Assembly: GCA_903952135.1 (NCBI GenBank)
Contig: CAJBER010000011.1
Coordinates: 1-37,118, forward strand
Direction: 5' to 3'
From: an uncultured Algoriphagus sp.
GTDB lineage: Bacteria > Bacteroidota > Bacteroidia > Cytophagales > Cyclobacteriaceae
Length of the DNA: 37,118 nucleotides
Of this stretch, positions 1 to 16,840 are shown piece by piece; position 1 is the first letter of the stretch, and every line of letters starts with the position of its first letter. The translations under genes were made by a program, and so were the position numbers. The notes beneath the pieces are model-generated. The model had not been told where the DNA came from and did no database searches. It was given only the letters and a program-made list of their open reading frames with translations.

Positions 1-13
1 AATCTCATCATTA

Positions 14-1369
14 TTATAAATTGAAGACATCAAAAATGCTAGTTCTATTGCCGGGTACTCTTTCCATTAAGATTTCCACAAGATTTGATGCTGAACTTCC
101 ATTAAAATCACAAATCTGTTGGAAATATACCTTGCCTAAAGAGAAAGGCTCCACGGTGAGTTTTCCTCCGTTGATTCCTTCTTTCTTGCAAATGTCTTTC
201 AGTGTATTAATAAAGGATCTATAATTATTTTCATTTAAATAATTCTTTGCATAGTCAACCCACTGATCTCTTCGTACTTCATTTCCTGAATCATCTCGCA
301 TCAAGTCACTTTTTGTCAAGACTACAAAAATAGCATCAGTTGATTTGTTGAATATTTTATGATTTTTAAAGTAAGTCGAGGCTGCGGCTAAATAATTGCT
401 TTGGGTAATCCCATTATGATCAGGCCTATTGTTTCTATTATAGTCAATAAAGAAAAAATGTATTTTCCGATTGCTATTCTTTAGGAATGAATTGAGCGTA
501 TTGAATGTATCTACGTGAGATTGAGATTGAAGTGGATCTCCTGCAGTTAAGTCAAAAAAGCATTTGAAAATTTCCCCACTCAACTCAATTAACGAAACGG
601 AGCGCACAGCGCTTTCAGTGGGACGTTTGAGGGTAAAGGGTAAATATTGGGTGTTTTCTAATGGGGTGGGCCCAGGAAGGTAATCGTTGGCAGCTCCATC
701 ATCACTAAAGATATTCATAAGCTGGGTAGCATACCGGTAACCGGGTCCTGTAGCTAGATTCAAAAACCCTTTTTTCTGTGCAACTTGCAATAAGGCCCCC
801 AAAGCACAGGTTTTTCCTGATCCAGGTGCTCCCCAAAAGTATACCTCGGTAAATCCAGAGGGAATAGCTTCAGGTGTCCTGCCAAGTTCTAATTGCTGAA
901 TTTCAACATTTTGTAAATTGTCAATTGCGGAGAGAGGTATGCCGCAACTCATCAATTCTTCAATTGAAATCGTATGGTGTAGGTAACTACTAATTTGAGA
1001 TGAGTTATAGGCGTTTGGGTTATTTCTAAGGTCGCTTAGTATTTTTTGTTTTTGAATTTTTGAATTTTCCTTTTGCCGTTCCAAAAAGGAGATTATTTGT
1101 CTTGCCTCCGCCACATGTTTTCCAGCAGGATGATTTGCTAGGTATGCTGAATAAGAAGCTTCGTCTCCTCCATTCTCAGCACGAAGCCAATCTGCCTCTT
1201 CCTTTGCTTCCAACTCATTGAGTAAGGAATTTATCTTGTTTCGTTTAATACTATTTAAATCCCCTGTTTGCACTAAGGCTTCCAAAGTGATATTACCTGC
1301 TTTGATTTCCTCAAAAAGTTGCTCTGCTGTTAGGCTAGCAGTATTTGCTAGAATTTTACTTTTTTCCAT
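14..1369 (-). CDS. P-loop GTPase-like protein of the Srf-like operon
   Basis: A 451-residue predicted cytosolic NTPase, last gene of the five-gene operon. Seen: Walker A GAPGSGKT at residues 180-187; a G3-like LIELSGE at 260-266, where classical GTPases have DxxG; and a G4-like TKSD at 352-355 preceded by the hydrophobic strand DAIFVVL. This pattern fits TRAFAC-type GTPases rather than AAA+ or STAND ATPases, but nucleotide choice is inference. Residues 55-93 carry an AxxDEASYxAYLxxxPxGxHxxEA motif, typical of helical TPR-like linker repeats in Bacteroidota proteins. No membrane segment is visible. An upstream ATG-less extension would overlap the preceding gene, so I chose the ATG at 1369 (MEKSKILANT), which leaves 22 bases after the neighbour's stop. 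It probably acts as a nucleotide switch for the neighbouring membrane protein and protease. The exact family is uncertain. Confidence 0.75.
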   Translation of the reverse strand: MEKSKILANTASLTAEQLFEEIKAGNITLEALVQTGDLNSIKRNKINSLLNELEAKEEADWLRAENGGDEASYSAYLANHPAGKHVAEARQIISFLERQKENSKIQKQKILSDLRNNPNAYNSSQISSYLHHTISIEELMSCGIPLSAIDNLQNVEIQQLELGRTPEAIPSGFTEVYFWGAPGSGKTCALGALLQVAQKKGFLNLATGPGYRYATQLMNIFSDDGAANDYLPGPTPLENTQYLPFTLKRPTESAVRSVSLIELSGEIFKCFFDLTAGDPLQSQSHVDTFNTLNSFLKNSNRKIHFFFIDYNRNNRPDHNGITQSNYLAAASTYFKNHKIFNKSTDAIFVVLTKSDLMRDDSGNEVRRDQWVDYAKNYLNENNYRSFINTLKDICKKEGINGGKLTVEPFSLGKVYFQQICDFNGSSASNLVEILMERVPGNRTSIFDVFNL

Positions 1370-1391
1370 CTTAATTTTTATGTTAAGGATT

Positions 1392-2318
1392 TTATAGTTC
1401 TTTATCGTCAGTAGTGGAAGCGCCAAAAAGCAGTTTCAATACATTACCTCTAATTCTTTCATGCCGCTTGGAAATAAGGTAAGAAAATAACATTAAAAAA
1501 ATTAAGCCCAAATGTATTGCAACACCTAAGGGGTTAAGTGGAGTTTCCTTTGTAAAAATGTCTGAAACTTGTTCAAAAGAAATGGGAGAATCAAAACTAG
1601 TAGTATTAGCTGCATTTAGAGGGTCAGAAGAATAGTTCTTTAGCTGTTCATTCCATGATTGTACTCCTAAATTGAGCTTATTTACTGTGCCTACTACGGT
1701 GATTGGAGACCAATTCTCTACTGCCGATTTTGAATCCGATAGCCAGCTCAAATCGCCTTTCATTTTGGAATAGTTCGAAGGCCTCAGTACTTGTTTCAAT
1801 AGATTTACGTTCGATTCTATTATTATGGCATCCGATTTTCCTTGTTCAAATCCTTCTGCTCTGTATTCAGATGGATTTACAAACTTTGCTTCAACGATAC
1901 TTTTTAGTTTACGTTCATATAAGTCAATGCTATTGTCTGCATAGGTATCGTACGCGTCAAATAGTCCCTCTGCTTCTGAAATATTTGAAAGGATACTGTC
2001 TTGTATTTGTTCTTTCTCCTGACTCACTGCGAAATAATGTGAGAGAGGGGAAATCGCAAAAAAACAAATAAGTAAGAAAACAAAAATTAGAATTGATTCA
2101 CTAATGATATTTGTCTTAAAATTCCTGGATACTCCTTTCAATGTTTTCAATACATAGGCTACAATTCCGAGAGCCAGCGCAAAGGATGTTGCCAAGATAA
2201 TACTCTTAATCGTGTCTCCTAGGGTTAAGAAATTATACCCCAGGAAAACAAGAAACCCGAAGGTTACAGCCCCCATCAGGGTAAGTAAGTCTGCCAATGA
2301 AAATTTAGATCGATTCAT
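1392..2318 (-). CDS. Four-TM protein with large periplasmic loop
   Basis: A 308-residue integral membrane protein that I cannot assign to a named family. Seen: hydrophobic segments at about residues 11-32, 38-58, 71-92 and 262-283. The short loop 59-70 (KTLKGVSRNFK) and the C-terminus (SKRHERIR) are positively charged. By the positive-inside rule this puts both ends in the cytoplasm and residues 93-261 in the periplasm. That loop is soluble, mixed helical and rich in N/S/D, without Cys pairs. The gene starts 21 bases after the protease gene and is followed 22 bases later by the GTPase gene, so it is co-transcribed with both. Its topology places it to connect the cytosolic GTPases with the predicted periplasmic protease domain; that link is inference from context only. 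Confidence 0.75.
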   Translation of the reverse strand: MNRSKFSLADLLTLMGAVTFGFLVFLGYNFLTLGDTIKSIILATSFALALGIVAYVLKTLKGVSRNFKTNIISESILIFVFLLICFFAISPLSHYFAVSQEKEQIQDSILSNISEAEGLFDAYDTYADNSIDLYERKLKSIVEAKFVNPSEYRAEGFEQGKSDAIIIESNVNLLKQVLRPSNYSKMKGDLSWLSDSKSAVENWSPITVVGTVNKLNLGVQSWNEQLKNYSSDPLNAANTTSFDSPISFEQVSDIFTKETPLNPLGVAIHLGLIFLMLFSYLISKRHERIRGNVLKLLFGASTTDDKEL

Positions 2319-2339
2319 TTTATTCTATTAATTAGTAGT

Positions 2340-4853
2340 TCAGTCTTTAATTTTGCTTAATTCTCCTTCAAGTAGCTCTAGCTGCTTTCTTAATCGTTCC
2401 ATTTCACGTAATAATTCATTTTTTCTCTCATTTCCAGAAGCAGGGGGAGCCTCAGGGCTGGAGCCATCACCCGAGCCATCACCCAAGGGGGGCGAATCCT
2501 CCTTACTTTGACAATTAGAAAAATCCCCCGATTTTACTTTTGCCAAAACTTGATCGAGTTGAACCAAATTACCTACATTGCCTTCGACAGGCTTTCCAGT
2601 CCCTTGGAGGATGCATTTGATTTGTTCTACCGTCAAATCTTTATTCAAACTTTTCATTAATGCAATGGTTCCCGTGATGATAGGAGCAGCCATACTTGTA
2701 CCTTCCCATGATTTATATCCATCATCTCCTACACTGCTGTAGATGGAAACTCCAGGTGCTGAAATAGTAGAATAATCACCGTAATTACTGAATCCTGCCT
2801 TTTCTAAATTTTTACTGTTTTTATCAAGAGCAGAAACAACCACAAAATTCTTGGGCCTATTTATAGGGTCAGCTCCTGCCAATATGTCGTCATTGCCCGC
2901 GGCAATTACTACGATAGCATTGTGCTTTTCTGCTATTTCCATTACCTTTTTATAAAGCCTTTCCTCAGACTTGAAACGATTGTTTTGTAAATCTTCTTGT
3001 TGAGCTTCCGAAAGTCCGGGGGGAAAGGCTTTTCCTAAGGAAACATTAATCACATCAGCACCTTGATACAAAGCATATAGTATCCCTCTAACAATGGAGG
3101 TGGTGGTCATTTGTCCTTGGTCATCTGCTACTTGAACAGGCATGAAAGCGCAATTTGGAGCAATACCTGTTAAGCCTTCTTGGTTGTCCATCAGGGCCAG
3201 TGCAGTCCCCGCTACGTGAGTTCCATGATCTTCCTCTTGAGCAAAAATTTCAGCTGATTGTTTCCATACGTTGTACGGCATGACGACCTTACTCTTGAGC
3301 TCAGGATGGTCTAAACTAAATCCATTGTCAACAATGGCAACGGTAACCTTGGGGGACCCTTTAGTAATATCCCATGCCTTAGGAGCATTTATTGTGTTGA
3401 GGTACCAGGCCTTGTCTTCTGAAGAAAATGCAGGATCATTTGGGATATACCCCGTTTCAAATTGGGATTCATCGAAAACGAATAACTTATATTCCGGTGC
3501 AAATTTTTCAGGAATTTCAGTCTGAAGGTTAACTCTTTCTGAGGATGGAATCTCAATTTGCATGTACTTCGCCTTGTCATCATAAAACACCACCTTATAG
3601 TTCTCGTCAGGATACTTGACTTTAAACGCTCGAGCAAAGTCCATAATCGACTTGTCCTCATTTTCCATCAGAATATTTAAGCGATTTCCAATAATAACAG
3701 GTTGCCCCGGTTCACGAATGATTTCTGTACTATCTATAGGAAGTAATTCGCCTTCAAAGGGTGGTAAGATATCCTCGTACCCAGGAGGTGTAGGTACTTT
3801 TTCGTAGGGATTTCCTGGATCATAAATACCTCCTTCATCACTTACCAAAGAGTCTTCTAGAACCCAAGGTTTATCCTCTATAGGATCAGGAATAGGTTCA
3901 GGTTTACTTTCACAGCATTGCAATAACCATAGCAACAAAAACAAAAGGAGTAAGAAGAGCAATAGCCACAGTAACCATCGTAGACATCCTCTGCCAAAAA
4001 AGAAGTTCCTGATCCAATTCCATAGTCGCATATACCAGGGTAATTCAACAATTGGAGGGATGATGGGAGCATATTGAGCCGTAAAGACGGTATCACCATC
4101 AGCTTGGAAATTAGTTGGATTTCGATCCCATCCTGTAAACTGGTATCCTTCCTTGGGTTCAATTCTTGGAATTTCATTTTCGGAAATGGATTCCCCCAGC
4201 GGTTTTTGAAATTCACTATTCCCTTGGATGTACCCATGTTCGCCTGGATTGAATTTGATATTGTGGAGGCTTTCACTAGGCTCACTAACTTCTACGACTT
4301 CTTCTGGTACTTCTTGGGTTGTCGCCTCGATCACAGGTGGGGCTATGACAGGGGCCTTCTTTTTTATTTTGAATAAATTTTTTGAAACCGTTCCTAATGA
4401 TTCCCTGTAATTCTCTTTCAATTGCATGCCCCAGATGCCCAAAACAAGGATCCCATCATAGCAATAAAGGAAATCGTCATTGATGAATTTTATCGCGCTT
4501 TCTAAGGTTTCTGCTTCGCTAGATTGATTCTCATTCTTTAAGTCATCGATTACCTTCTGGTAATGGCTGAGAGTTTCATTCTTTACCTTTTCATAGGTTA
4601 TTCTTTCCTCACCTTGCAATTCTGAGAACCGCACTGGAGTTTCGTTGTAGGGGGCTGAATACCAGGTTATTGTATCTCCCTCATCATCAGGTTCAGCTAA
4701 AAAATTCTGGTACTTCTCACTTACTTTCTTTTTGACAACACTTTCAATATCTGGATACCGATCAAATAAAGTGCGATCTCCAAAACCCTGAATAGACTTG
4801 AAGTATTTTTTCTCGCTACTACATAATTGCTCTTTACCTTTTATCCTAGTCAT
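2340..4853 (-). CDS. Membrane-anchored subtilisin-like (S8) serine protease
   Basis: An 837-residue multidomain protein. Order seen: residues 1-165, an unassigned charged domain without signal peptide; about 195-263, one region resembling an InlB/Listeria-Bacteroides repeat (GY.FTGW...TA.Y); 289-312, a Leu/Trp-rich transmembrane helix ending in CC; 313-390, an acidic Pro-rich linker; 391-490, a propeptide-like region; about 495-770, a subtilisin (S8) domain with all catalytic residues: Asp509 (AIVDNG), His543 (DHGTHVAG), Asn654 (AAGND) and Ser720 (GTSMAAP). After an acidic linker, residues 808-837 form a Leu-heptad coiled coil. Arg residues just before the helix suggest N-in/C-out, so the protease would be periplasmic. 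It lies third in the operon, 5 bases after the SrfC-like gene. The protease assignment is firm; topology is inferred; substrate unknown. Confidence 0.9.
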   Translation of the reverse strand: MTRIKGKEQLCSSEKKYFKSIQGFGDRTLFDRYPDIESVVKKKVSEKYQNFLAEPDDEGDTITWYSAPYNETPVRFSELQGEERITYEKVKNETLSHYQKVIDDLKNENQSSEAETLESAIKFINDDFLYCYDGILVLGIWGMQLKENYRESLGTVSKNLFKIKKKAPVIAPPVIEATTQEVPEEVVEVSEPSESLHNIKFNPGEHGYIQGNSEFQKPLGESISENEIPRIEPKEGYQFTGWDRNPTNFQADGDTVFTAQYAPIIPPIVELPWYMRLWNWIRNFFFGRGCLRWLLWLLLFLLLLFLLLWLLQCCESKPEPIPDPIEDKPWVLEDSLVSDEGGIYDPGNPYEKVPTPPGYEDILPPFEGELLPIDSTEIIREPGQPVIIGNRLNILMENEDKSIMDFARAFKVKYPDENYKVVFYDDKAKYMQIEIPSSERVNLQTEIPEKFAPEYKLFVFDESQFETGYIPNDPAFSSEDKAWYLNTINAPKAWDITKGSPKVTVAIVDNGFSLDHPELKSKVVMPYNVWKQSAEIFAQEEDHGTHVAGTALALMDNQEGLTGIAPNCAFMPVQVADDQGQMTTTSIVRGILYALYQGADVINVSLGKAFPPGLSEAQQEDLQNNRFKSEERLYKKVMEIAEKHNAIVVIAAGNDDILAGADPINRPKNFVVVSALDKNSKNLEKAGFSNYGDYSTISAPGVSIYSSVGDDGYKSWEGTSMAAPIITGTIALMKSLNKDLTVEQIKCILQGTGKPVEGNVGNLVQLDQVLAKVKSGDFSNCQSKEDSPPLGDGSGDGSSPEAPPASGNERKNELLREMERLRKQLELLEGELSKIKD

Positions 4854-4858
4854 GGCGA

Positions 4859-7705
4859 TTAGTTTTCTATAATTTCGAGGTCCTTAATTATCAGTCCCAA
4901 CCTTTCGTTTGCAATTGGATCATAATTGGGGATACCACTTGAAGTAACAAACCCTGCTTTAAGCAAATCATACCACATGAGGTAGTTGCGGTAGTTGGGT
5001 AGTAATTTTAGTTTTTCCTTGGGAAGGGGATTTTGATTAAGTAGTTCTGGCAAATTCCCCATTTGGGTAATCAAGTCTGCAACTTCTTGTTTGTTTGTTC
5101 TTTCAAATTCAAACTCATCGTGTTTCCAAGATAATCCGTTGATATTTTCACTTACTTTTTTCAGGTCATTGAAATTAGATTCATTATAATAGTCTAGCCC
5201 AACTGAATTAATGAATTTATTAATCATTTCGGTGCTTATATCAGAAATCATCTCGTAAACATCTTCGATGTTTCGATATCCATCTACGTAGCCTCGAATT
5301 CTTTCTCCAATTTTTTCTGTGATTTCAAGTTTTTTATACAATCTTCTAAGCATATCCTGGAATTCTTGAAGATCTTCTTGGGTTAAGACTTGCAAAAGGT
5401 TCTGCTGGTTTTTTTGCATGTACTCTTCAAACCAATACCTTTCTAGTTCATTAGCCAAAACTTGGTAAAAACTTTTTACTCGATCATTATTTCCATAAAA
5501 GAGTTCGTTTAGATCAATGCCCATTTCATTTTCAAAAAAGTGTTGACATTCTGTCAAGGAACTTTTTTCGTAATGTTTTCTCAGGCTCTCTAAATTATCT
5601 TGGAATGGTAAGTTGGGGTCAAGGCTTGAGACTTGGAGTCGAATCCCGCTGTACTTATCCATGTTAATCACATCTCTTTTTTCTATATCTCTAATTTTAT
5701 TCAGATATAGATTATACACATCGCTATTGCTCAACATTAATTCTCGCATCATAAACCCGAAAAAATATGGATTTTGTCCAAATGCGTTGTCTAGTTTTGC
5801 TTGAATCTTCCCTGCTTTTCCTATTGCTTTTAGTAGGTTTCCTGCTTTATCTGAATTATTATAAAATTCTGCTAAGAATGATATCGTGTTTTTCTGAATA
5901 CTTTTGAGGTCACTTAATGTTTTTTCAGAGCGTGCTTCATTTATGTTGCTTGCGGCTATATTTAATTTGTTAATTATGAGTTGTGTTCCATCTTGATTCA
6001 TACTTGCAGCACTATCCCAAGAATTAACCGGATCATCAAAATGCTTATTTACAAATTCATCATCAAGAAATGATTGACGGAGTTTAACTCTAAAATCCTT
6101 GAAATTTTCCGGTACTATTTCTTCTAATTCCTTTCTGTTTGAATTAAAGCCTTTAAAAATATGGCTTATGCTTTCAGACTTCTCAAAATCTCGCAAAAGG
6201 AAAATATTTGAAAAATTCTGTTTTGAATTTGTCCATTTTGTAAACCAACTGTAAGTCTCGGTATTTAGTAATTGTTCTGATAAGGTTTTAACAAATCGTT
6301 GATTCCATCTGTATTTAAAGGAAGATGTATCATTTACTTTATCTAACTGGGGGTTGTATTGTAAATTCACATTAAAGAATGTCCCAATGATAAATAAGGG
6401 AGGAACTTTACTTTTATGAATAAATTCTTCTCTTTTTTCAGGGGTTTCTCCGACTATTTTTGAAATCCAACCATTCAACATTTCAGGCATAGCCCGTTGT
6501 GCCGCTTGTTCATGTTTGGCACAAAAAAGCAGGATGTTTATCTTTTCGTTTTCGGAAAATTTATTGAATAGGTAGGCCACTTTGCCTCTCAGCAATAACT
6601 CAGGAATCATTTCCGTTTCAATCAAATTTTCTGGCAGGGATAAACGGGATCGTGCACCTGGAAAATCCAAAAGATCAGTCGTACTTAAAAATTCCTTTGT
6701 TTTTACCAATGTTTCAGGTTGATTAAACACCAATTCAGCACATAATGCACAAAGGATTGGTTTTCTAAAATTTAATTGCTGGCTTTGTTCGTTATTGAAA
6801 AACAGAACATTTGTTTCCGCTTTATAATCTGATTCTATTCTATCTGGGGTTAAATAAATTTCCTTTAAGCGCTTAACATCTAGCAACGTCCCGTGCTTGT
6901 ACAATACAGATTCTACAGGCAAATAGACACAATTCGAAAAGTTTAACTTTTTATATTCGTTGATTAGCTCTGAAAACAGGGAAGTAATTTTCTCGTTTTT
7001 ATTCCAAAGCATAGAAAAAATGTTTTTCCATTCATTTGGTTCTATATGTGATATTATTTTAGAAATATTATCAAAAAAGCCAGAAGAGAGAACTTCTCCT
7101 GCTTTTTGTAAATTATTGTTGAAATAATCTTTTAAATCCAAAACATCATCTTCTTCAATAATATTTTGAACAGGAGCCTTTTCTTTAAATTTTTCATTTA
7201 TACTAATTAGCTCTTCTGCAATAACCTCTGATTTTAATATTGTGTCGTGATTGGTTTTTATATCGCTATAAAAACTATCACATAATACTAAAATTATGTC
7301 TTTTGGAGACAATAGATTTGCTTTAATCGGGAAATTAGGGTCAAGTGGTTTGTAATTGACAGAAAACCTTGAAACCAAGCTAGTTGATTCCGACCCTCCT
7401 CCAGGAGGATTTATTTCTTCAATGAAATTGTAAGATTTATTATTTTGATCAACTAAGACAAACGGATTACCTTCTTCTGATAAGAGGCTACTAATCAAGT
7501 AGGATTTTCCAACTTGGCTTTCCCCATAAATGGCAGCTGCAGGGTTGCCTTCAATGGCAAATCTTTTCTTTTTTAGGTTTCTTCGGAAACCGACTAAATT
7601 ATTGTAGGCATTTTCCCCTTTTACCCCCTTCATTGATTCTGTTTCCTTCACCCACTTTATTGCTTTTTCAATAGATTGGATTTGGTCGGATATATATTTA
7701 ATCAT
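4859..7705 (-). CDS. srfC: SrfC-like dynamin-type P-loop GTPase
   Basis: A 948-residue protein. Seen: Walker A GESQVGKS at residues 61-68; a possible G2 Thr in the SESTSLVSRF stretch (104-113); and a G3-like TDLLDFPGARSR around 343-354 (DxPG instead of DxxG). A long, mostly helical C-terminal part follows from about 550, as in dynamin-like or SrfC proteins. No transmembrane segment is obvious. The assignment to the SrfC family (named from the Salmonella srfABC locus, annotated there as putative virulence factor) rests on these motifs, the length, and the SrfB-like gene directly upstream, 11 bases away. In this family the biochemical role is not established. The gene is AT-rich like the rest of the operon. 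The alternative is a generic dynamin-like GTPase unrelated to SrfC. Confidence 0.72.
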   Translation of the reverse strand: MIKYISDQIQSIEKAIKWVKETESMKGVKGENAYNNLVGFRRNLKKKRFAIEGNPAAAIYGESQVGKSYLISSLLSEEGNPFVLVDQNNKSYNFIEEINPPGGGSESTSLVSRFSVNYKPLDPNFPIKANLLSPKDIILVLCDSFYSDIKTNHDTILKSEVIAEELISINEKFKEKAPVQNIIEEDDVLDLKDYFNNNLQKAGEVLSSGFFDNISKIISHIEPNEWKNIFSMLWNKNEKITSLFSELINEYKKLNFSNCVYLPVESVLYKHGTLLDVKRLKEIYLTPDRIESDYKAETNVLFFNNEQSQQLNFRKPILCALCAELVFNQPETLVKTKEFLSTTDLLDFPGARSRLSLPENLIETEMIPELLLRGKVAYLFNKFSENEKINILLFCAKHEQAAQRAMPEMLNGWISKIVGETPEKREEFIHKSKVPPLFIIGTFFNVNLQYNPQLDKVNDTSSFKYRWNQRFVKTLSEQLLNTETYSWFTKWTNSKQNFSNIFLLRDFEKSESISHIFKGFNSNRKELEEIVPENFKDFRVKLRQSFLDDEFVNKHFDDPVNSWDSAASMNQDGTQLIINKLNIAASNINEARSEKTLSDLKSIQKNTISFLAEFYNNSDKAGNLLKAIGKAGKIQAKLDNAFGQNPYFFGFMMRELMLSNSDVYNLYLNKIRDIEKRDVINMDKYSGIRLQVSSLDPNLPFQDNLESLRKHYEKSSLTECQHFFENEMGIDLNELFYGNNDRVKSFYQVLANELERYWFEEYMQKNQQNLLQVLTQEDLQEFQDMLRRLYKKLEITEKIGERIRGYVDGYRNIEDVYEMISDISTEMINKFINSVGLDYYNESNFNDLKKVSENINGLSWKHDEFEFERTNKQEVADLITQMGNLPELLNQNPLPKEKLKLLPNYRNYLMWYDLLKAGFVTSSGIPNYDPIANERLGLIIKDLEIIEN

Positions 7706-7716
7706 TGTCTTTCCAG

Positions 7717-10700
7717 TTAATTCTTATAAAAACCTATATTGTTAAATGCACCTGAGTCTAACCAATAGGTGTCCGATTCATTCATACTTTGAATTTGTAA
7801 TTGGAAGTACGATAGAGGTAATTCATTTTGGTTTCGGTCCTCAATTGCTTCGATTTTTAAGTTTTCTTTATCTTCAAAATAATTTTCTCGGACGATTCTA
7901 ATTTTATAAGGGCTTAAAACCCGTAATCTTTCCAATTCCTTTACCACCAAGTCATTTATTTGAGTTTTATCATTGGTAGTTAATGAGAATTTTTCAATGA
8001 TTTTTTCTCTTATTTTCCCTTCATTAAAGTCCAATTGATAAAATGGCCTAGTTGGGTATTTTGTTGAATCTAACTGTCTTGTCCAGATCCGAAGCGGCAA
8101 TTGGGATACGTCTACAATTGCATTGTTTGCTTCGGGTGAGAGGAAAGAAACTTCAGTTTCTGATTTTGAAAAATACTCTGTTGTGGGTTTCATTTCATGA
8201 ATTAGCTCACTCAAGTCCAATGAAAACCCGTCGAGACTTCCCTTTGTCGACGCGTAATTGCCAATCATCGCTCCTACAGGGACTATGGATTTAGAATCAT
8301 TAAAATATCCCTTTCCATTTTGGAATGGGTACCAAGTTCCAATTCTATAGTTGTCCATTGTGATCAATCTATTTGGAGCAATGGCATAATACTTAAAAAA
8401 TAAATCGGAGAGCGGCTTTAACGAAGTTGGTCTACCAGTCAGCAAGACAATATCGCAGCCATAGTATGAAAGTAACGTTGAAATTTTGCCTACCAACGAA
8501 TCAAACGTACTCTCTACTATTTTAGAAATTTTTTCCTTGCTATAGCGCCAATTTATTTCAGTGATTGAAAAGCCAAAGTGTTTGGAAAAATGCTCCATGA
8601 CACGGTCTGTGGGCTTTGTTTTGGAGAAAATATCATCAAAACCTAAGGTTGCTTCTCCTACCTTATTTTCTTTAAGTAATTCAAGGAAGTATGTTGCTAC
8701 TGGAATTGATACCTGTAAATTAAAATCACTCCTTATTTGCCTATCAGAAATTGATTGGCGCGCATTGTCTTCTCCAAAAAAATCAAGAATCAACTTTGAG
8801 AAATCAGTATTTGGATTTTTTCTCAATTGATTTGGAATCTCAGCTTCATCACCTTCAATAACTATTCTTCGAATTATATTTTTTAATAGATCATCGCCTG
8901 CTAAATAAAAACTCTCCCAAAACAACGGCTTGGGAGTCAGAGTACCCTGATCTGCATCATCGTATTTGTATGCCGCAATCATGAGATCAGTAGTTCCAGC
9001 GCCAATATCTACACTGCCTATGGTGATGGATTTCTTTTGATAATTATTTAAATCAGTCCTTACCTTACCATAGAAGTCAAAGTACTCTTTGCAATTATTT
9101 TTATACCGCTGTGTTAATTCTGAATATAGGAAGACAAATTGAGAACAAGTTGCTTCATCATAAATCCACTCTTCCTTACCGTTAGTACTCGCAAGATTTT
9201 TGTAAGAGGGAAGGACTTTTACTTTACTCTGAAACTCCTTCAAATCCACCGCTTTTGTGGTCGTATCAGTATAGAATCTTTCCAAAATTATGGAGGCGTC
9301 TTCAGCACACTTTCTTAAGGCAGCCTGCTCAACTCGGGACATTGCTGTCGGTGTAGTCACAATTATTCTATCAATGCGTCGTGGTTTATTTTCAGCGCCC
9401 CATTTATGCCTAAACTCATAACTATTTATTTGCATTTTGGCTTGAGCCAAAATTTCTAAAAACGAAAAAGTCATTAAAGTCTTCCTAGAATAGAATTTAT
9501 CGATGGCTCCTTCTCCGTTAAGATTTAAAGAACCGTCAGCGTTCAATTGTTCAGAGACACCTTTAATTTGCAATAGATTATTTTTATTTTTATCTCCATT
9601 AAGTTTTAAAAACTCCCAATCTTTTTGTTGTGGTTTGGAATCCCATAGGTATCTCTTGGGACTTGAAAAAGTAGAAATTTTTTCTACCCCAGTGTTTAAG
9701 TTTATTGCTTGATGGATTAGGTTATTGGCTTCAACACCCAAACGAACTAAACTAGGAAAAACAAATTGCTTACTTCCTTTAAGCGTTTCGACACCAAAAT
9801 TAGCTTCTCTAAATGCAAGTCGCATGTCAAATGGCTTGTCATAAACGTTTAATTGACCATTTTCAATAGGATTGGATAAATCATTCAGAGATAAATGTTC
9901 TACTTTAGTAAAGTCATGGTTATCAAATAGAATGGCACAAGTGCGTGAGTTACCCATGTCCACAATTAAATCCACGTCTCCAAAAGCGACATTTTTATCA
10001 GAGAATAGGGTGATTTTAGGCAATAAGTTTAATTGCTGAATGTATTTTATGAAAAAAATATATTGAGCTAAATAATTCAATTTTGGCTTTTTAATATTTA
10101 GCTCATCTACAGTTTTTACATCGTGGTAGATTTTTAAGATGCATTCCTCAACCCAATCACAGTTGTAAGGATATTTTGAGCAAAAATCAAGTAATGAAAA
10201 TTCATTATTGCATAAAGCAAATTCTTTAGATTTATCATAACTACTGGCGAAAACCGGAGTTTCCATTAAATCTTGTTCCTCGAAATCTTCACTTTCGTAG
10301 GTAGTTCTTGTATCGAAGGCAAGCAATAAATTGTATTTTTTTATTGTACTTGAAGAAGTGTCAGGAACTAATTTGCACCGGCACCAATTGGTAGGTCCAA
10401 ATTCAGATTTGCCCTTACTTCCTAAAGTGAAAAATGGAAAGGGTAACCATTCATTTTCAAATTTCTCCCATCTGAACCTATTTGGAGATACCTGAAAGCA
10501 GTTTGTGATATTCCCATCAGTTTCCATGGGTGTAATTGGTTGATGTCCTTCTGCAAAGAAGTCATCTTTAATGTCTTCCCAGCTGTAAGGCTTAAACACG
10601 CCGTCTTCAATTCGACCTACCTTACCGTCTGTTAATCCTAAACCAAAAAGATTATAAATGTCTTTTTTATCAACCCAAATATCTTCCTCAGAAAAATGAT

Positions 10701-10833
10701 GAGCTATTTCAAGTTTTAATGTCTCATCTTTTATATCAAACCACTCATGAAAATACATTTTGAAATTATCGTTCAAATTCACTTCGAATGGAACGGTAAC
10801 TAATTGAATTCCAGTATTTGCTATTAGATTCAT
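7717..10833 (-). CDS. srfB: SrfB-like actin/Hsp70-fold ATPase
   Basis: A 1038-residue cytosolic protein, first gene of the operon. Seen: the three actin/Hsp70 superfamily motifs: phosphate-1 VDMGNSRT at residues 291-298, phosphate-2 DIGAGTTD at 609-616 and an adenosine-type LLTGRPTS at 797-804. It also has IVTTPTAMS at 491-499 and SPKRYLWD at 391-398. Residues 1-280 are an N-terminal extension I cannot assign. Length and motif spacing fit SrfB (about 1000 residues), the partner of SrfC in Salmonella-type srf loci. It probably binds and hydrolyses ATP and changes conformation or polymerises; its role in any host is not firmly known. ATG at 10833 follows a 391-base AT-rich gap, which should hold the operon promoter. 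Confidence 0.78.
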   Translation of the reverse strand: MNLIANTGIQLVTVPFEVNLNDNFKMYFHEWFDIKDETLKLEIAHHFSEEDIWVDKKDIYNLFGLGLTDGKVGRIEDGVFKPYSWEDIKDDFFAEGHQPITPMETDGNITNCFQVSPNRFRWEKFENEWLPFPFFTLGSKGKSEFGPTNWCRCKLVPDTSSSTIKKYNLLLAFDTRTTYESEDFEEQDLMETPVFASSYDKSKEFALCNNEFSLLDFCSKYPYNCDWVEECILKIYHDVKTVDELNIKKPKLNYLAQYIFFIKYIQQLNLLPKITLFSDKNVAFGDVDLIVDMGNSRTCAILFDNHDFTKVEHLSLNDLSNPIENGQLNVYDKPFDMRLAFREANFGVETLKGSKQFVFPSLVRLGVEANNLIHQAINLNTGVEKISTFSSPKRYLWDSKPQQKDWEFLKLNGDKNKNNLLQIKGVSEQLNADGSLNLNGEGAIDKFYSRKTLMTFSFLEILAQAKMQINSYEFRHKWGAENKPRRIDRIIVTTPTAMSRVEQAALRKCAEDASIILERFYTDTTTKAVDLKEFQSKVKVLPSYKNLASTNGKEEWIYDEATCSQFVFLYSELTQRYKNNCKEYFDFYGKVRTDLNNYQKKSITIGSVDIGAGTTDLMIAAYKYDDADQGTLTPKPLFWESFYLAGDDLLKNIIRRIVIEGDEAEIPNQLRKNPNTDFSKLILDFFGEDNARQSISDRQIRSDFNLQVSIPVATYFLELLKENKVGEATLGFDDIFSKTKPTDRVMEHFSKHFGFSITEINWRYSKEKISKIVESTFDSLVGKISTLLSYYGCDIVLLTGRPTSLKPLSDLFFKYYAIAPNRLITMDNYRIGTWYPFQNGKGYFNDSKSIVPVGAMIGNYASTKGSLDGFSLDLSELIHEMKPTTEYFSKSETEVSFLSPEANNAIVDVSQLPLRIWTRQLDSTKYPTRPFYQLDFNEGKIREKIIEKFSLTTNDKTQINDLVVKELERLRVLSPYKIRIVRENYFEDKENLKIEAIEDRNQNELPLSYFQLQIQSMNESDTYWLDSGAFNNIGFYKN

Positions 10834-11224: not shown

Positions 11225-11767
11225 TTACTTCGAGACAATTCTACAAACTCCCCTTTTTTCTAGGTCTTTAAAACAGGCCTTCTGCCAGCGGTCAGCTACT
11301 TCTCGGGCTTTCCTTTCGAAGCTATTGTCCTGGTAACCCACTTCCTTGATTTCCTTGTCATAGGCCCGGTCGTCCTTGCCTGATCGGATATCCAAAAAAT
11401 GCTGGTACTCGTGAATTACCGTGTTCACCACCTCACGCAAATCCGCATGGCTTCCCCAGTACACGGTAATCACTTTACCCCGCTGCTGGTACGTTCCCAT
11501 CACCTTGCGATGCTTGTAATAGCGAAGATCCACTCGAGGCCAGGTTCGGCTGCGGGGCGGAAGTCCAAAATGTCCCACACACCATCGGATGACCTCCCGA
11601 ATAAAGGCAGCTTTGCTTACTCGAAGTTGGATGCCGCCCCCTCTACTTGAGCTTTCCTTGCCTTTTGATCCTTGCCACAACACCCAAAAAATCCAGACCG
11701 CTCCGCAAGCGGCACAGATTCCAATCCATTCACGTTCGCTTATCCCAGAAAATAATGACTCTAACAC
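11225..11767 (-). CDS. Membrane-anchored HExxH metalloprotease-like protein
   Basis: A 180-residue protein with one N-terminal hydrophobic segment (about residues 14-32) followed by a basic SKGKESSSR stretch. The soluble part has the zincin motif HEYQH at 119-123, in a helix after NTVI. A Glu-rich helix about 30 residues later (SFERKAREVAD, Glu151 and Glu156) could supply the third zinc ligand. This resembles small SprT/ImmA-like zinc proteases, but I cannot name the family. Base composition is clearly more GC-rich than the adjacent Srf-like operon, so it is probably an independent unit. A TATTTTTG match to the Bacteroidota -7 box lies at 11808-11815 on the minus strand. Substrate unknown. 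Confidence 0.7.
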   Translation of the reverse strand: MLESLFSGISEREWIGICAACGAVWIFWVLWQGSKGKESSSRGGGIQLRVSKAAFIREVIRWCVGHFGLPPRSRTWPRVDLRYYKHRKVMGTYQQRGKVITVYWGSHADLREVVNTVIHEYQHFLDIRSGKDDRAYDKEIKEVGYQDNSFERKAREVADRWQKACFKDLEKRGVCRIVSK

Positions 11768-12101: not shown

Positions 12102-13658
12102 ATGCGAAACCTATCAGGAGTTTTAAGCTTGGTCCTAATCAGCCTTGTGCTGCTGTCTTGCGGAGGAAATAGCGCCCCGTCCATTTCTTTGATCCCTGTC
12201 CAAAACGGGAAGGATTTCCAGTACATCGACAAGGAAGGCAAAATCATTATCAACCCTCAGTTTGCTGTTGCTTCCGTATTTCGTGAAGGATTAGCCTTAG
12301 TAAAAACCTCTGGCGATAAAGGGAAATTTGGCTTTATCAATGAGGATGGAAAGTATGAAATCGCCGCTAACTATAAAGACGGAACTGTCTTTAGCGAGGG
12401 TTTGGCTTGGGTAGTCTCGGAAAATGGTGCACCAACAGCAATTGATTCCAAAGGAGAAATAAAAATCACACTTCAAGATGCTGAAGCTGTTAAAATCTTT
12501 AGAGATGGATTAGCGGCATTCAGTATTCTCAAAGACGGGGAATACCAATGGGGATTTGTGGATAAAGAAGGTAAAGTAATCATCAGCCCACAGTTTAGTG
12601 CTACTGGAAATTTTTCTGAGGGGAAATGTGAAGTGCTCAACAAGGATGGTAAGTGGGGATATGTAGACGCTGAAGGTAAACTAATCATCAACTATCAATT
12701 CGATGCTGCCAATAAATTTGTTGACGGCCAAGCCGCTGTAGGATTTGATGGCAAAGCAGGAGCGATAGATGAAAACGGAAAATACGTGATTAATCCACAA
12801 TTCGATGAAATACGTACAGATGGAGATCTCTATGCAATTCGGCAAGGGGACAAGTGGGGTTGGTCCAATCGAGAAGGAGAAATTATCATTAATCCCCAGT
12901 TTGAATCCGTGTATTCATTCAGCGGCGGCGAGAGTGCTCCCGTTAAAATGGGTAAAGATTGGGGGTATGTGGATAAAGAAGGAAAGGTAAAAATCAACCC
13001 TCAATTCGATGACGCACTACCAATAACGAATGGATTTGGAATTGTTCAAAGTGGAAAAAAAATTGGTTTAATTGACGAAGAAGGCAAATACCTAGTAAAC
13101 CCTCAATTCGACGAAATTAATTACGACCTCTTATTTTACTTGATTTATGATGGGACATTTTATGAAAGTGTAACATCGGACTATTTCAATATTGCCCCAA
13201 TTGTGTCTCGAATCAACCTTAGCTCCCCCGAAGGCCTTACCTTAGGGAGTACCTTGGGAGATCTAATCAAAAAAGTGAACGTTAAAGAGGAGATTTTTAA
13301 TCAATATAGAGACACGCACCTAGTATTGGAGAATATTCCCTTAACTAGTGATGCAACCGTAAATTTTTCAGTGCAGGCAAAAAGCCATAAAGAAGTAGAA
13401 GACGGATGGTACTTAGTGTCAGTATTTAATTCTTCTGCCCCTATAACTGGATTTAGTTATACTATAAATCTTTCCGGAAAAGGATATAGCAAGGCTGATC
13501 AGGTGCTAGCCGCAATTGAAAAAGGAATCAAAGGGTTTAAAAAAGATGAAGCAGATCCGGCTAGTAAAGACTGGACTGTTTATACAAACGGCACCCAAAA
13601 AATCTATTTGAATATGAATGGGCCCCAAGTGAACGTTTGGGTTATGAAGGCCCAATAA
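12102..13658 (+). CDS. WG-repeat lipoprotein
   Basis: A 518-residue predicted lipoprotein with a hydrophobic signal and lipobox LLSC (Cys20). Residues from about 30 to 345 consist of nine beta-type repeats with the core D.EGK.IINPQF, the signature of WG (KWGFID) repeats; examples begin YIDKEGK, FVDKEGK, YVDAEGK and WSNREGE. The third copy (DSKGEIKITLQD) is degenerate. The C-terminal 170 residues lack repeats and form an unassigned domain. WG-repeat proteins are common in Bacteroidota and are thought to be surface or periplasmic binding scaffolds; the ligand is unknown. It is a single gene on the plus strand, flanked by minus-strand neighbours, and ends in a strong terminator. Confidence 0.85.
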   Translation: MRNLSGVLSLVLISLVLLSCGGNSAPSISLIPVQNGKDFQYIDKEGKIIINPQFAVASVFREGLALVKTSGDKGKFGFINEDGKYEIAANYKDGTVFSEGLAWVVSENGAPTAIDSKGEIKITLQDAEAVKIFRDGLAAFSILKDGEYQWGFVDKEGKVIISPQFSATGNFSEGKCEVLNKDGKWGYVDAEGKLIINYQFDAANKFVDGQAAVGFDGKAGAIDENGKYVINPQFDEIRTDGDLYAIRQGDKWGWSNREGEIIINPQFESVYSFSGGESAPVKMGKDWGYVDKEGKVKINPQFDDALPITNGFGIVQSGKKIGLIDEEGKYLVNPQFDEINYDLLFYLIYDGTFYESVTSDYFNIAPIVSRINLSSPEGLTLGSTLGDLIKKVNVKEEIFNQYRDTHLVLENIPLTSDATVNFSVQAKSHKEVEDGWYLVSVFNSSAPITGFSYTINLSGKGYSKADQVLAAIEKGIKGFKKDEADPASKDWTVYTNGTQKIYLNMNGPQVNVWVMKAQ

Positions 13659-13954: not shown

Positions 13955-14704
13955 TTACCCCTTCTCCTCAATATAAGCGAGCAACAGTCTCTTCAATAGC
14001 CTGCGCTCCTCGGCGATGGTTTCCACATTGGATTCCATATTGCTGAGCATGCCCTGCAAGTGGGCCACCGCATTGACTACCTTACGTAGCTGTTTGGGAT
14101 CTAGAGGTAGCAAATGGGGTTCTGGCTTTTTCCCCTCAAGCTTATCCATACCCAACCGAGGCATGTCATATACTTCTTCCATCAGTTCCAAAAGTTCTAT
14201 CCGCTTTTCCCGGTAGCGAGTCTGGTTGCCCATAAAAATCTGCTCCTTGCGTGCATATACCGACAAGTGGCGCACAATGCTGTCCGAACGAATCAAGCGC
14301 ATGTTGCCCGACTTTAGCTCGTCGCGCGTAGCCAAATTTTCCACAAAACTAATCCCGGTCACCAAAGAAGCCGAACCTGGCAAGATGAAGTAGGCAAACA
14401 AACTGTCTAAAAATGGCTTCTCTCCAAGACCTCCCTGCATCAGTGGAATCAAGGTATTGATCTGTTGCTCCTTTAAGGCATAATTGACCTTCACCTCTTC
14501 CATCCGGATGCTATCCAAGTCAAGATCCTCCACCAAACGCTGTGCATACTGCACCCCACGCGTATTTTCCCCCCAATTTTCACGCTGGTTGTCAGCAAAA
14601 AAACCCAAGGAAATCGCTGCAAACAGCATCAAAAACTCCATGGCATACTTTTTCCAGCTTGATTTTTTAGACTTATTCGTGGAGTCTGAGAGGTCCTTTT
14701 TCAT
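13955..14704 (-). CDS. DUF6090-like membrane protein
   Basis: A 249-residue protein with a basic N-terminus and a single transmembrane segment at about residues 21-38 (YAMEFLMLFAAISLGFFADN), then a long, mostly helical soluble part ending in a basic helix. The opening KKYAMEF...ISLGFFADNQRE resembles DUF6090-type proteins common in Bacteroidota, whose function is unknown; the assignment is from memory of that pattern. It has no enzyme motif. The gap after it, 13730-13954, shows no gene or clear repeat. The repeat protein gene lies 31 bases upstream on the same strand, so the two may be co-transcribed. Confidence 0.65.
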   Translation of the reverse strand: MKKDLSDSTNKSKKSSWKKYAMEFLMLFAAISLGFFADNQRENWGENTRGVQYAQRLVEDLDLDSIRMEEVKVNYALKEQQINTLIPLMQGGLGEKPFLDSLFAYFILPGSASLVTGISFVENLATRDELKSGNMRLIRSDSIVRHLSVYARKEQIFMGNQTRYREKRIELLELMEEVYDMPRLGMDKLEGKKPEPHLLPLDPKQLRKVVNAVAHLQGMLSNMESNVETIAEERRLLKRLLLAYIEEKG

Positions 14705-14735
14705 GGCCTTGATTTTTTAAAACCCTAAACTATTT

Positions 14736-15134
14736 TCAATAGAAAAAGAAGAAGAAAAATAGGGCGGCATTGGTGATCCGTACCCCCTCGTAATAGCCGA
14801 TAGTCCTGCGCGAACCATCCATCACCCGATCATCTTCAATGTAGCCAATCGTCCTACGGGACTGATCTGTTACTCGCCCATTTTCGATATAGCCTATTGT
14901 AGACCTCGATCCATTCATCACGCGACCATCTTCCACATAGCCAATGGTACGCCGCGATCCATCTGTCACCCGGTTCCCATCCAAGTAGCCAATCGTCGAT
15001 CGAGAGCCATTGGTGACCCGCTCTCCTTCGATGTAGCCTACCGTGCGGCGACTCCCATCCATCAGGCGCTGGGCAAGACTTGGTGTAACTCCTAGAGCAA
15101 AAAAAACAAGTAGGATAAGTAGAAAGGGTCTCAT
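14736..15134 (-). CDS. Small secreted 16-residue-repeat protein with poly-Phe tail
   Basis: A 132-residue protein with a signal peptide ending about residue 21 (VTPSLAQ). The mature part is almost entirely tandem copies of a 16-residue unit, GYIEDGRVxDGSRRTI, starting at residues 33, 49, 65, 81, 97 and 113, with a half copy before them. Each copy is probably a pair of short strands, as in small beta-flower or beta-propeller-like folds; this fold suggestion is inference. It ends in six consecutive Phe plus Tyr (AALFFFFFFY), unusual for a secreted protein and possibly a membrane or outer-membrane targeting tail. Function unknown. Confidence 0.75.
   Translation of the reverse strand: MRPFLLILLVFFALGVTPSLAQRLMDGSRRTVGYIEGERVTNGSRSTIGYLDGNRVTDGSRRTIGYVEDGRVMNGSRSTIGYIENGRVTDQSRRTIGYIEDDRVMDGSRRTIGYYEGVRITNAALFFFFFFY
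14769..15068. repeat. Tandem 48-bp coding repeats
   Basis: Six full units plus a part unit of 48 bp inside the secreted repeat protein, encoding residues 23-122. Copies share the GYxExxRVxxxSRxTI code but differ at many third positions, so they are not a recent amplification. Confidence 0.8.
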
Positions 15135-15154
15135 TAGATGTAAATGAATAGGAT

Positions 15155-15237
15155 TATCCGCAATTATGCCACTAGTTCAATAGAAATGTTTGCCCAGCGG
15201 GAATTTTTTGGTCAACAGCTAACAGTCCACCGTCAAT
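15155..15237. repeat. Composite dispersed repeat, copy 1
   Basis: TATCCGCAATTATGC at 15155-15169 and GTCAACAGCTAACAG at 15211-15225, continuing tCCACcGTCAA to 15237. The same two blocks occur in the same order at 36850-36864 and 36894-36916, with a further copy of the second block at 37027-37050. It lies in the 174-base gap between two minus-strand genes. No protein is predicted from it. Confidence 0.65.
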
Positions 15238-15308
15238 CGTGGTTAGAGTACGCTTTGCCTCAACAATTACAAGCTGCAGTCGTCCGTGGACAGTGGACCG
15301 TTGGCAAT

Positions 15309-16646
15309 TTAGGGCGATATCCGATACAAGATCATCCGCTTATCCACTTCCGATTTAGTTCGGGAGATCAACTCTTTTTCGTGAAGGGTTTGGTAATACT
15401 GATTGACCGCCTTGATGTACCTGGACCTACGCACCCTTCGGTAGTCCAAGCTTTCTAGGGCAGCCGTTCCAAATAAGTCGTCCAACTGATGTACATCTAC
15501 CAGCAAGCCAGGTTGGGCGAGTAGCTTGGCCACAAGTCGCTCGATATCTTCCACACCATCTACCGTACCCTGCTCCTCAGCAGGAGGAAGCTGTTCTGCC
15601 GGATTGGATTTTTTTCCACCTCGGTTTTTCCTCCACCAAAGCCCTCCACCTACTGCCATCAAGCCCACTAATGCCGCAAGAATGGAAAAAGACCAATCTT
15701 CTATCCCAAAGGAAGAGGCCTGAGGGTTCAATCGAATGTCTCCTACTTTCGTGAATTTTTCCAAAGGAGATGGTGGATGTAAAAGAAAAGTGGGATCTCC
15801 GTATCTGTCAAAAAACACGGCATTGTTTTCCAAGGCAACCGCCACCGAGAAATCCTTAAACCTCCCGAAGTCATTGTCTTTGGCAAAATGCAAGGTGTTA
15901 TCTTTTTTGTTTAGCAACAACAGCCCAAGGTGGGCTTCGAGCTGATACAATTGAACTCCATAGTCCTTCAAGTCGAAGGAGGGCATGATCCATGAACTCA
16001 GATTTTTTTGATTTGGAAAGTCCAATTCTATAGAACTCCAGGCTTTGCTCTTAAAGTCAAATACATACCCGTTTTTATCCGGATAAAAGACATTGGAAGG
16101 CTGGTGGATATTTTCCCCCAAAATGGAAATGACTCGGTCACCGTCTACAAAGATTCCCACACCCCCATAGTTCATAGGAGGAGAAGAGACCGGAACAAAT
16201 TCCCAATACCCAGTGTCAAAATCAAACTCGAGTAATTCGCTGTGCGCTCGCCAAAATCCATACCGCCCCATGGAATACAATTTCCCCTCTCGCACAAAAA
16301 AATGCGCATGACAGTTGAACCCAGAGCCCGTACCCTTGTACAAGTTTTCCCAACTTTCACCCGTCCAGCGTAAGACCTCAAATCTGCAGGGAATGACCGC
16401 TAAAAGTTTTTCCTGAACATAAAATAGGGTGATAGGATCATCGGTCGTGAGGTAAGGCGATGCGAGCAGTGAATCAACCATTACTTGGGTGATGCCTTGA
16501 GGAAGGGTTTCCCAAGCATAGCGATCGAATGATTCCTTAGGATTAATTTTTATCCAATCAAAGGAACCGAAGGTCTGCTTTTCGGATTGAGCAGAAAGAG
16601 TAAGACAAGAGAAAAAAACTCCAATAAAAAAAATAACTGCTTTCAT
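15309..16646 (-). CDS. Secreted/membrane beta-rich protein with cytoplasmic C-terminal domain
   Basis: A 445-residue protein from the ATG at 16646; a TTG two codons upstream is possible but less likely. It has a signal peptide ending near TLSAQ, then about 290 residues of beta-rich, Trp/Tyr/Gly-rich sequence suggestive of a kelch- or propeller-like sensor. One transmembrane helix follows at about 317-339 (WSFSILAALVGLMAVGGG) with a basic stop-transfer RKNRGGKK. Residues 350-445 form a cytoplasmic domain containing LDDLFG...LDYRRVRRSRYIKAVNQYY. The whole architecture is repeated in the protein at 33337-34620. It looks like a transmembrane sensor or adaptor; no known signalling output domain is recognised. 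Confidence 0.7.
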   Translation of the reverse strand: MKAVIFFIGVFFSCLTLSAQSEKQTFGSFDWIKINPKESFDRYAWETLPQGITQVMVDSLLASPYLTTDDPITLFYVQEKLLAVIPCRFEVLRWTGESWENLYKGTGSGFNCHAHFFVREGKLYSMGRYGFWRAHSELLEFDFDTGYWEFVPVSSPPMNYGGVGIFVDGDRVISILGENIHQPSNVFYPDKNGYVFDFKSKAWSSIELDFPNQKNLSSWIMPSFDLKDYGVQLYQLEAHLGLLLLNKKDNTLHFAKDNDFGRFKDFSVAVALENNAVFFDRYGDPTFLLHPPSPLEKFTKVGDIRLNPQASSFGIEDWSFSILAALVGLMAVGGGLWWRKNRGGKKSNPAEQLPPAEEQGTVDGVEDIERLVAKLLAQPGLLVDVHQLDDLFGTAALESLDYRRVRRSRYIKAVNQYYQTLHEKELISRTKSEVDKRMILYRISP

Positions 16647-16772
16647 GGTCAAACATTTTTCCTGCTGGTACTCAAACGCCAGAAATCAGGAATTTTATAT
16701 AACTAAAGGTACAAAAAACTCGAAAAAAGCCTACGCAAAATCTAGAGTAGCAAGATTCAGTCCAAAAATAGA

Positions 16773-16806
16773 AATCCCCCCTGCAGAAAAAACCACAGCG
16801 GGGATT
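16773..16806 (-). terminator. Probable fumC terminator
   Basis: Inverted repeat AATCCCC (16773-16779) and GGGGATT (16800-16806) with a 20-base loop, followed on the minus strand by TTCTATTTTTGG. It lies 35 bases after the fumC stop. The long loop makes this moderate only. Confidence 0.5.
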
Positions 16807-16840
16807 CCAGAAAACCTGAAAAAGGTGAAAAATTCTCCCC

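Follow-up and report, generated by a model that had tools for sequence, protein, structure and literature searches.

What does a subtilisin-type protease do in the company of several nucleoside triphosphatases (NTPases)? The question is raised by five genes at one end of a contig from an uncultured Algoriphagus sp. (Bacteroidota; GenBank assembly GCA_903952135.1, contig CAJBER010000011.1). We refer to the whole stretch analyzed, 37,118 nucleotides (nt), as the window; it is a single contig from an assembly of 2.84 Mb that is 89.9% complete. A preliminary description had read the genes as one operon of an SrfB-like ATPase, an SrfC-like dynamin-type GTPase, a membrane subtilisin, a protein with four transmembrane (TM) segments, and a second GTPase, and had proposed a signalling or conflict machine, perhaps against phages. 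We found that the subtilisin is SrfA itself, that the fifth gene is homologous to the DO-GTPases, and that the order of the five genes is conserved in relatives.

SrfA with an S8 protease, and its partners SrfB and SrfC

Five minus-strand open reading frames (ORFs) fill positions 14 to 10833, with intergenic gaps of 11, 5, 21, and 22 nt, just as had been described. The assignment of the first two also holds, because both proteins match their families over nearly their full length and far over the curated cut-offs: SrfB matches PF07520 (E = 6.8e-197; 657.1 bits against 27.1) and SrfC matches PF10139 (Virul_Fac/SrfC; E = 1.6e-111; 374.5 bits against 28.1).

The third gene encodes an S8 domain (residues 502-752; PF00082, E = 7.4e-46) behind one TM segment (293-311), so this part of the preliminary description stands. 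However, it is not an added gene. Its N-terminal region, at about residues 10-190, is an SrfA domain, and a coiled-coil-like tail ends the protein. The family profile NF040486 (SrfA_fam) matches residues 10-190 with an E value of 7.1e-10 and 38.9 bits, under its curated cut-off of 150. Therefore, we built a separate hidden Markov model (HMM) from six proteobacterial SrfA proteins in plasmid records. It matched gene 3 over residues 21-190 and the TM segment (290-317) with an E value of 3e-15. One TM segment is also predicted in all eight proteobacterial SrfA candidates examined. We therefore rejected an additional, unrelated membrane subtilisin; by these profile matches gene 3 is SrfA with an S8 protease after the TM segment, and so all of SrfABC is present in the window.

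The protease has what an S8 enzyme needs at its active site: the triad D509, H543, and S720 and the oxyanion residue N654 are invariant in 43/43 aligned proteins. Among the 73 S8 proteins with a length of 600 amino acids (aa) or more, 45 (the window's among them) show the SrfA N-terminal match. In 12 of the 73, the SrfA HMM has a further match C-terminal to the protease, which places the S8 domain within SrfA in these proteins. SrfA and S8 are a single gene in most loci where SrfA was detected. In locus L197 (genome G356) they are adjacent separate genes, an S8 protein with a TM segment at 14420-15829 and SrfA at 15826-17979 (SrfA HMM, E = 1.9e-6). L063 and L077 have an S8 protein with no SrfA match and, downstream, a separate weak SrfA match (E = 5.6e-5 and 9.3e-5). 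This fusion and fission as one pair suggests that SrfA and the protease act together.

Table 1. Coordinates of the operon genes and of two neighboring ORFs in the window
Feature	Position	Strand	Basis
Gene 1, SrfB, actin/HSP70-fold-like ATPase, 1038 aa	7717..10833	-	PF07520, conserved motifs
Gene 2, SrfC, P-loop NTPase, 948 aa, no predicted TM segment	4859..7705	-	PF10139
Gene 3, SrfA fused to S8 subtilisin, 837 aa	2340..4853	-	SrfA HMMs, PF00082
Gene 4, predicted four-TM protein, 308 aa	1392..2318	-	hydropathy
Gene 5, DO-GTPase-like GTPase, 451 aa	14..1369	-	PF19993 (weak), hhalign
Possible start of a truncated gene 6 (ATG ATG AGA)	1..11	-	sequence
Protein of 180 aa upstream of SrfB, HEYQH motif	11225..11767	-	weak Peptidase_M90/DUF3920 matches
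Protein of 518 aa, lipoprotein-like start	12102..13658	+	eight WG-repeat matches

SrfB carries motifs that we take to be phosphate-1 (DMGNSRT), phosphate-2 (DIGAGTTD), and a GRPTS box, and we presume an actin/HSP70-like fold. All three are conserved columns in 30 relatives. In SrfC, G61, S63-Q64, G66-K67-S68, E106, T108, R113-F114, D347, and P349-G350 are invariant across 60 aligned proteins, so that the P-loop core, a switch-like ExT...RF, and a DxPG motif are conserved. Read as GTPase motifs, these residues give conserved G1-, G2-, and G3-like motifs, and the G4-like site is T442/N445 (TxFN) instead of TKxD.

The "dynamin-type" label for SrfC fared less well. Dynamin_N is absent among its Pfam matches at E values up to 1. 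In hhalign it reached 0.6% with E. coli b4109 (rdcA), which we take to be a dynamin-like protein, and 3.5% with a Der-like GTPase, both weak comparisons in which one side was a single sequence. A Dynamin_N search of the relatives yielded, at the seven loci inspected, what are presumably Era-, Der-, and MnmE-like GTPases or ABC proteins, and no dynamins. We therefore do not regard SrfC as a proven dynamin. No profile backs the label, and GTP specificity and a dynamin fold, suggested by motifs, are putative and unproven. Sequence searches of solved structures gave no informative relative for SrfB, SrfC, the GTPase part of gene 5, or gene 6 (below); the SrfC matches, mainly nanobodies and designed helical proteins, were discarded as chance. 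In one relative (L062), SrfC is apparently split by a 456-aa opposite-strand ORF, perhaps an insertion.

Gene order in relatives, the DO-GTPase, and the genes that follow it

To follow the gene set, we used an alignment of 30 SrfB proteins to scan genomes, one for each species. At least 576 stretches contained a relative, and the best 80 loci were kept; these are the closest relatives and not a random sample, because they are the best scoring. Gene order was judged in the 68 that extend 8.8 kb or more downstream of SrfB, the other 12 being too short. For this count, neighboring ORFs that were pieces of one family were joined, and any unlabelled ORF lying between the genes was ignored. Co-occurrence was thus assessed in loci found through SrfB, with S8 relatives listed apart from genomic context.

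The order SrfB, SrfC, SrfA/S8, TM protein, GTPase was kept in 62 of the 68 loci, bearing out the proposal that the five belong together and arguing that the arrangement is more than chance. Neither outcome that the preliminary description had named as refuting it, rare co-occurrence or a lack of SrfB and SrfC profile matches, was seen. Five of the six exceptions lack only a recognized TM gene, and L077 lacks both the TM protein and the GTPase. Eight order-keeping loci have an unlabelled ORF between genes, and in several, one gene corresponds to two ORFs. No description of this set turned up in the literature on SrfABC, or on SrfB/SrfC with subtilisin, GTPase, ATPase, or phage defence, that we searched, most of it non-subscription; to that extent the claim that it is new stands.

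Carriage is patchy. Counting the window's own genome in both, 2/296 genomes of the phylum and 4/196 of the family carry the set. Hosts are free-living and gut bacteria alike, judged by record titles, which also name cultured carriers (Flavobacterium cellulosilyticum, Gelidibacter maritimus, and Niastella yeongjuensis), none of them known to be a pathogen. Two operons of Bacteroidota type sit under other titles (L005, Limnohabitans; L038, Clostridiales) and are likely misbinned contigs. The most distant carriers in the family, G440 and G356, have SrfB, SrfC, S8, and SrfA with gene-5-like GTPases nearby; those of G440, two in number, are on the opposite strand.

Gene 4 fits the four-TM protein first proposed. 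Hydropathy predicts segments at residues 8-26, 39-57, 71-89, and 261-279, with a loop of about 170 residues between the third and fourth that is predicted to be periplasmic. No Pfam family exceeded its cut-off (DUF2157 reached E = 0.0021), and a homologue was recognized in 62/68 loci.

Gene 5 was rightly described as a second GTPase, and its family can now be refined. We placed its start at the ATG favored by relatives (the listed ORF begins at a TTG, position 1426). The protein has a P-loop (GxxxSGKT), a Walker-B-like ELSGE, and TKSD. Alone, it matches PF19993 (DO-GTPase2) below the cut-off (E = 0.0015; 18.7 bits against 27). Among 40 aligned family members, 11 match DO-GTPase2 and 6 match DO-GTPase1 at E values up to 0.1, and the copy in the G158 operon exceeds the curated DO-GTPase cut-off (33.2 bits against 27). 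Aligned with hhalign to four classical DO-GTPases that have GAP1-N1 protein neighbors, the family scored 96.1% (E = 3.2e-9), with P-loop, SGE, and TKSD in register. G265, E266, K353, and D355 are invariant in 40/40, E266 being the Walker-B glutamate. A conserved glutamate at this place is described for DO-GTPases in the available text of PMC7159879. By profile and motif, then, gene 5 is a distant DO-GTPase. Some members have a helical N terminus like YfiO/BamD repeats, and some relatives (e.g., L024, L025, and L073) have two GTPase-labelled ORFs. Classical DO-GTPase genes with GAP1-N1 also occur in Bacteroidota (L186:2533-6464 and L185:3497-8418; the L185 GTPases were labelled without a Pfam scan), and in one of these two loci GAP1 is fused to a PNP_UDP_1 domain.

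The five genes are not a closed set. The contig ends 13 bases past the gene 5 stop, and an ATG ATG AGA there could be the first codons of a next gene. Among 34 loci fetched further downstream, an HMM for a sixth gene matched in 33 (all but L087), although the model was trained on truncated copies taken partly from those same loci; of four loci outside the training set, L120 (E = 9e-49) and L198 (E = 5.3e-65) matched and L195 and L197 did not. Gene 6 is the ORF directly after the GTPase in 32/34, and L112 has a small opposite-strand ORF between them. Therefore, the window's operon is cut off, and its five genes are the truncated 5' part of a longer one; a truncated gene 6 at the contig end is possible, judging from the relatives. 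What stood of the preliminary description is the five in fixed order, and what fell is the set as a complete unit. Elsewhere in the window's own genome gene 6 has no match, which is uninformative by itself.

Gene 6 encodes 427-888 aa, with a TM segment in the second half where inspected. Two further genes often come next: the product of the first, about 300 aa long, has a hydrophobic segment at its N terminus, and that of the second, about 310 aa long, begins like a signal peptide. Behind genes 6-8 comes a variable tail that differs strongly between relatives. Ten chosen tail proteins gave Pfam matches to FnIII with Lcl_C, SH3, BACON, tetratricopeptide repeats (TPR) with aspartyl protease, Trypsin_2, Sel1, CarboxypepD_reg/SpaA (one with vWA), and papain. 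Second proteases (trypsin-like, papain-like, and aspartyl) are found in the tails of L092, L098, and L118.

Recombinases, mobility, and the defence context

Genes of tyrosine recombinase type, related to each other, lie upstream of SrfB in 8/80 loci. In six (L012, L018, L022, L027, L028, and L075) the recombinase adjoins SrfB at a distance of 291-1064 bases, and the stretch between the two genes holds inverted repeats whose perfect cores measure 15-20 nt and are separated by 148-330 nt. Shuffling produced any 15-nt repeat in no more than 2 of 300 trials per locus. L010 and L069, where the recombinase gene is distant, have no such inverted repeats. A recombinase with inverted repeats before SrfB suggests phase variation in these six relatives, and the repeat-bounded segment is a probable candidate for an invertible promoter.

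Counted from 13 nt upward, perfect repeats within 1.2 kb upstream occur in 13/72 loci, 7 of the 13 having no adjacent recombinase; control rates were 4/180 control windows, 10/316 windows further upstream, and 1/37 control gene starts. Of nine segments, one (L033) contains the strict form of what we take to be the Bacteroides promoter pattern, and three (L027, L033, and L075) contain a looser form. L033 has a similar repeat pair, with no recombinase found nearby.

Recombinases of this kind, with the patchy carriage, could speak for anti-phage defence, in which the NTPases would sense infection and the S8 protease would trigger a response, as in ATPase-subtilase systems. On the plasmid of Runella sp. 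SP2 (L121:2170-28873), SrfB, SrfC, S8, and the following genes lie directly downstream of BREX. Furthermore, the window's S8 domain matches PADLOC "subtilase" (E = 1.3e-21) and IetS (E = 4.7e-5), and DO-GTPases are the switch family of predicted conflict systems that depend on nucleoside triphosphates (NTP), as presented in the accessible text of Kaur et al. (2020; PMC7159879). However, a shared S8 fold may by itself account for those S8 matches. SrfB and the TM protein match nothing in PADLOC, and SrfC and the GTPase match weakly (E = 0.0063 and 0.042). Among 149 of the 370 upstream neighbor proteins in 68 loci, 80 PADLOC families were matched at E values up to 1e-10, and each of the 25 families shown was hit by a single protein; these are isolated matches with no control set. 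On these 149 neighbors we rejected a general defence island: one locus lies behind BREX, and the check that the preliminary description proposed did not otherwise favor it.

A phage- or virus-borne system was likewise set aside, as SrfC matched nothing in 50,697 phage records and no SrfB relative was confirmed in viral contigs. No full gene set of a described anti-phage system was matched, the PADLOC matches of note being to the S8 fold. Overall, we consider anti-phage defence rather unlikely, one possibility among several. The signalling or conflict machine first proposed thus keeps its NTPase-protease anatomy, and the evidence for its anti-phage part is weak.

Distribution bears as well on a second explanation, that the operon performs housekeeping or envelope-stress proteolysis (quality, assembly, or turnover of surface proteins) with no adversary involved. 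A protease on a membrane anchor, an SrfB resembling actin/HSP70-like ATPases, and tail proteins whose N termini look like signal peptides and whose domains are of surface type would all suit such a role. The set is nevertheless rare, recombinase-linked in six relatives, and plasmid-borne in places (SrfB matches 142 plasmid records, 114 of them from Klebsiella), which is untypical of housekeeping. We think this explanation unlikely.

A trans-envelope model and its relation to known systems

The reading that we favor, tentatively and at somewhat less than an even chance, is a trans-envelope, protease-linked SrfABC machine that responds to envelope injury or contact-dependent conflict and is perhaps phase-variable in some hosts. 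SrfA would be the inner-membrane anchor of the complex: its N-terminal domain would lie on the cytoplasmic side, touching SrfB and SrfC, and its protease would face the periplasm. The four-TM protein and genes 6-8 of the relatives (a TM protein, an N-terminally anchored protein, and a signal-peptide protein) might relay a signal across the membrane to the DO-GTPase switch. An envelope stimulus could in this way change the NTPase/GTPase state and lead to activation of the protease. The active protease would then cut partner proteins in the periplasm or at the surface; these may be encoded in the variable tail, where FnIII/lectin-like, SH3, Ig-like, BACON, and vWA proteins and second proteases are the candidates. 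The same elements could make up a phase-variable trans-envelope immune machine, in which variable surface proteins (FnIII/lectin-like, Ig-like, and vWA proteins and second proteases) would sense contact or injury, the periplasmic subtilisin of SrfA would set off a protease cascade, and SrfB, SrfC, and the DO-GTPase would act as an NTP-dependent cytoplasmic switch; this is doubtful.

Complex formation has been reported for Xenorhabdus SrfA, SrfB, and SrfC, which co-precipitate according to the available text of PMC6950479. The same study, of Xenorhabdus stockiae, reports the three proteins, purified or expressed, to be cytotoxic to HeLa cells. With the name "virulence factor," this could point to export of SrfABC as an effector or toxin complex. 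The window's proteins fit that poorly: SrfB and SrfC have NTPase motifs and no predicted TM segment, SrfA is membrane anchored, and in Bacteroidota, whether free-living or from the gut, the set comes with a TM protein and a DO-GTPase. In addition, later work did not uphold SsrB as a regulator of srfABC, as stated in the accessible part of PMC3608642. An effector role is therefore very improbable.

Several observations weigh against the envelope machine that we propose. The window has no recombinase and no convincing inverted repeat upstream of SrfB; its only repeat there is 13 nt with a 638-base gap. The window's SrfA lacks the C-terminal SrfA domain detected in 12 of the 73 S8 proteins, and 26 of the 73 have no SrfA-HMM match at E values up to 0.01 (16 of these are short, 616-698 aa). 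G440 and G356 have no gene-6 HMM match at their loci. Gene 6 occupies the position of GAP1, yet no GAP1 match was found among 27 members, several of them truncated, and hhalign gave 0.4% in a comparison that covered GAP1-N1; we therefore rejected gene 6 as a GAP1. TM segments were predicted with a hydropathy script, and the topology is a prediction from hydropathy and the positive-inside rule. No experimental work on the Bacteroidota SrfABC/S8 form appeared in the literature searched. The vWA/ABC/FGE-type genes discussed below are absent from three of the seven plasmid srf loci that are annotated. Finally, housekeeping envelope proteolysis would share much of this anatomy. Even so, the anatomy is solid, and a membrane-anchored envelope NTPase-protease machine for injury or conflict would be its most likely role.

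If the more doubtful reading as a phase-variable immune machine were right, the supposed virulence factor SrfABC would form the center of an envelope-conflict system that is widespread, and proteobacterial srf/TagQRST loci would be united with the DO-GTPase conflict systems. The Bacteroidota form offers a handle on SrfABC, namely, an SrfA-embedded protease whose active site is defined and a switch GTPase from a family for which conflict systems are predicted. The apparent invertible segments in six relatives would predict on/off expression within a population.

Among known systems, IetAS consists of an AAA ATPase and a subtilase. The window resembles it in pairing an ATPase with an S8 protease, and the weak match to IetS lies in that protease. 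In contrast, none of the five window proteins matches IetA, and the window's protease is membrane anchored on SrfA.

The resemblance to the threonine phosphorylation genes TagQRST/PpkA lies in an envelope-sensing set beside SrfB/SrfC. Proteobacterial srf loci sit with sensor genes of this type, as far as the accessible text of PMC3608642 describes them. Genes for vWA, ABC, permease, and FGE-sulfatase-type proteins occur at 4/7 annotated plasmid srf loci, and in L122, L123, L125, and L146, all plasmids, proteobacterial srf is followed by vWA, ABC ATPase, permease, and FGE-sulfatase-type genes. Unlike these sets, the five window genes have no match to an ABC transporter, permease, kinase, or FGE-sulfatase. 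Proteases recur near srf in Proteobacteria as well. A Trypsin_2 gene precedes SrfA in two of four alphaproteobacterial loci (Cereibacter and Mesorhizobium); the neighbor at that place is annotated otherwise in Enterobacter, Klebsiella, and Rahnella and as hypothetical in Gluconobacter and Rhizobium. Hap is a serine protease. A Hap-like gene lies near srfABC in Deltaproteobacteria, again by the available text of PMC3608642.

With the DO-GTPase/GAP1 systems the window shares a homologous GTPase, including its Walker-B glutamate, a membrane setting, and peptidases, and its relatives share variable FnIII, SH3, and vWA partners; some such systems also have HSP70. They differ in that the window's GTPase accompanies an SrfABC core and that no GAP1 was detected in the relatives' gene 6. 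Two paralogous GTPases are present in 38% of the DO-GTPase systems, and the window has one. These features of the systems are as given in the available text of PMC7159879, the main text of which contains no occurrence of the string "srf."

The closest likeness in the core is to proteobacterial srfABC. SrfB and SrfC match nearly full length, and SrfA matches in its N-terminal domain and single TM segment. The proteobacterial order is A-B-C with an SrfA that has no protease, whereas the window has B-C-A and carries S8 within SrfA. Furthermore, the window's set continues with a TM protein and a DO-GTPase, and in its relatives with genes 6-8.

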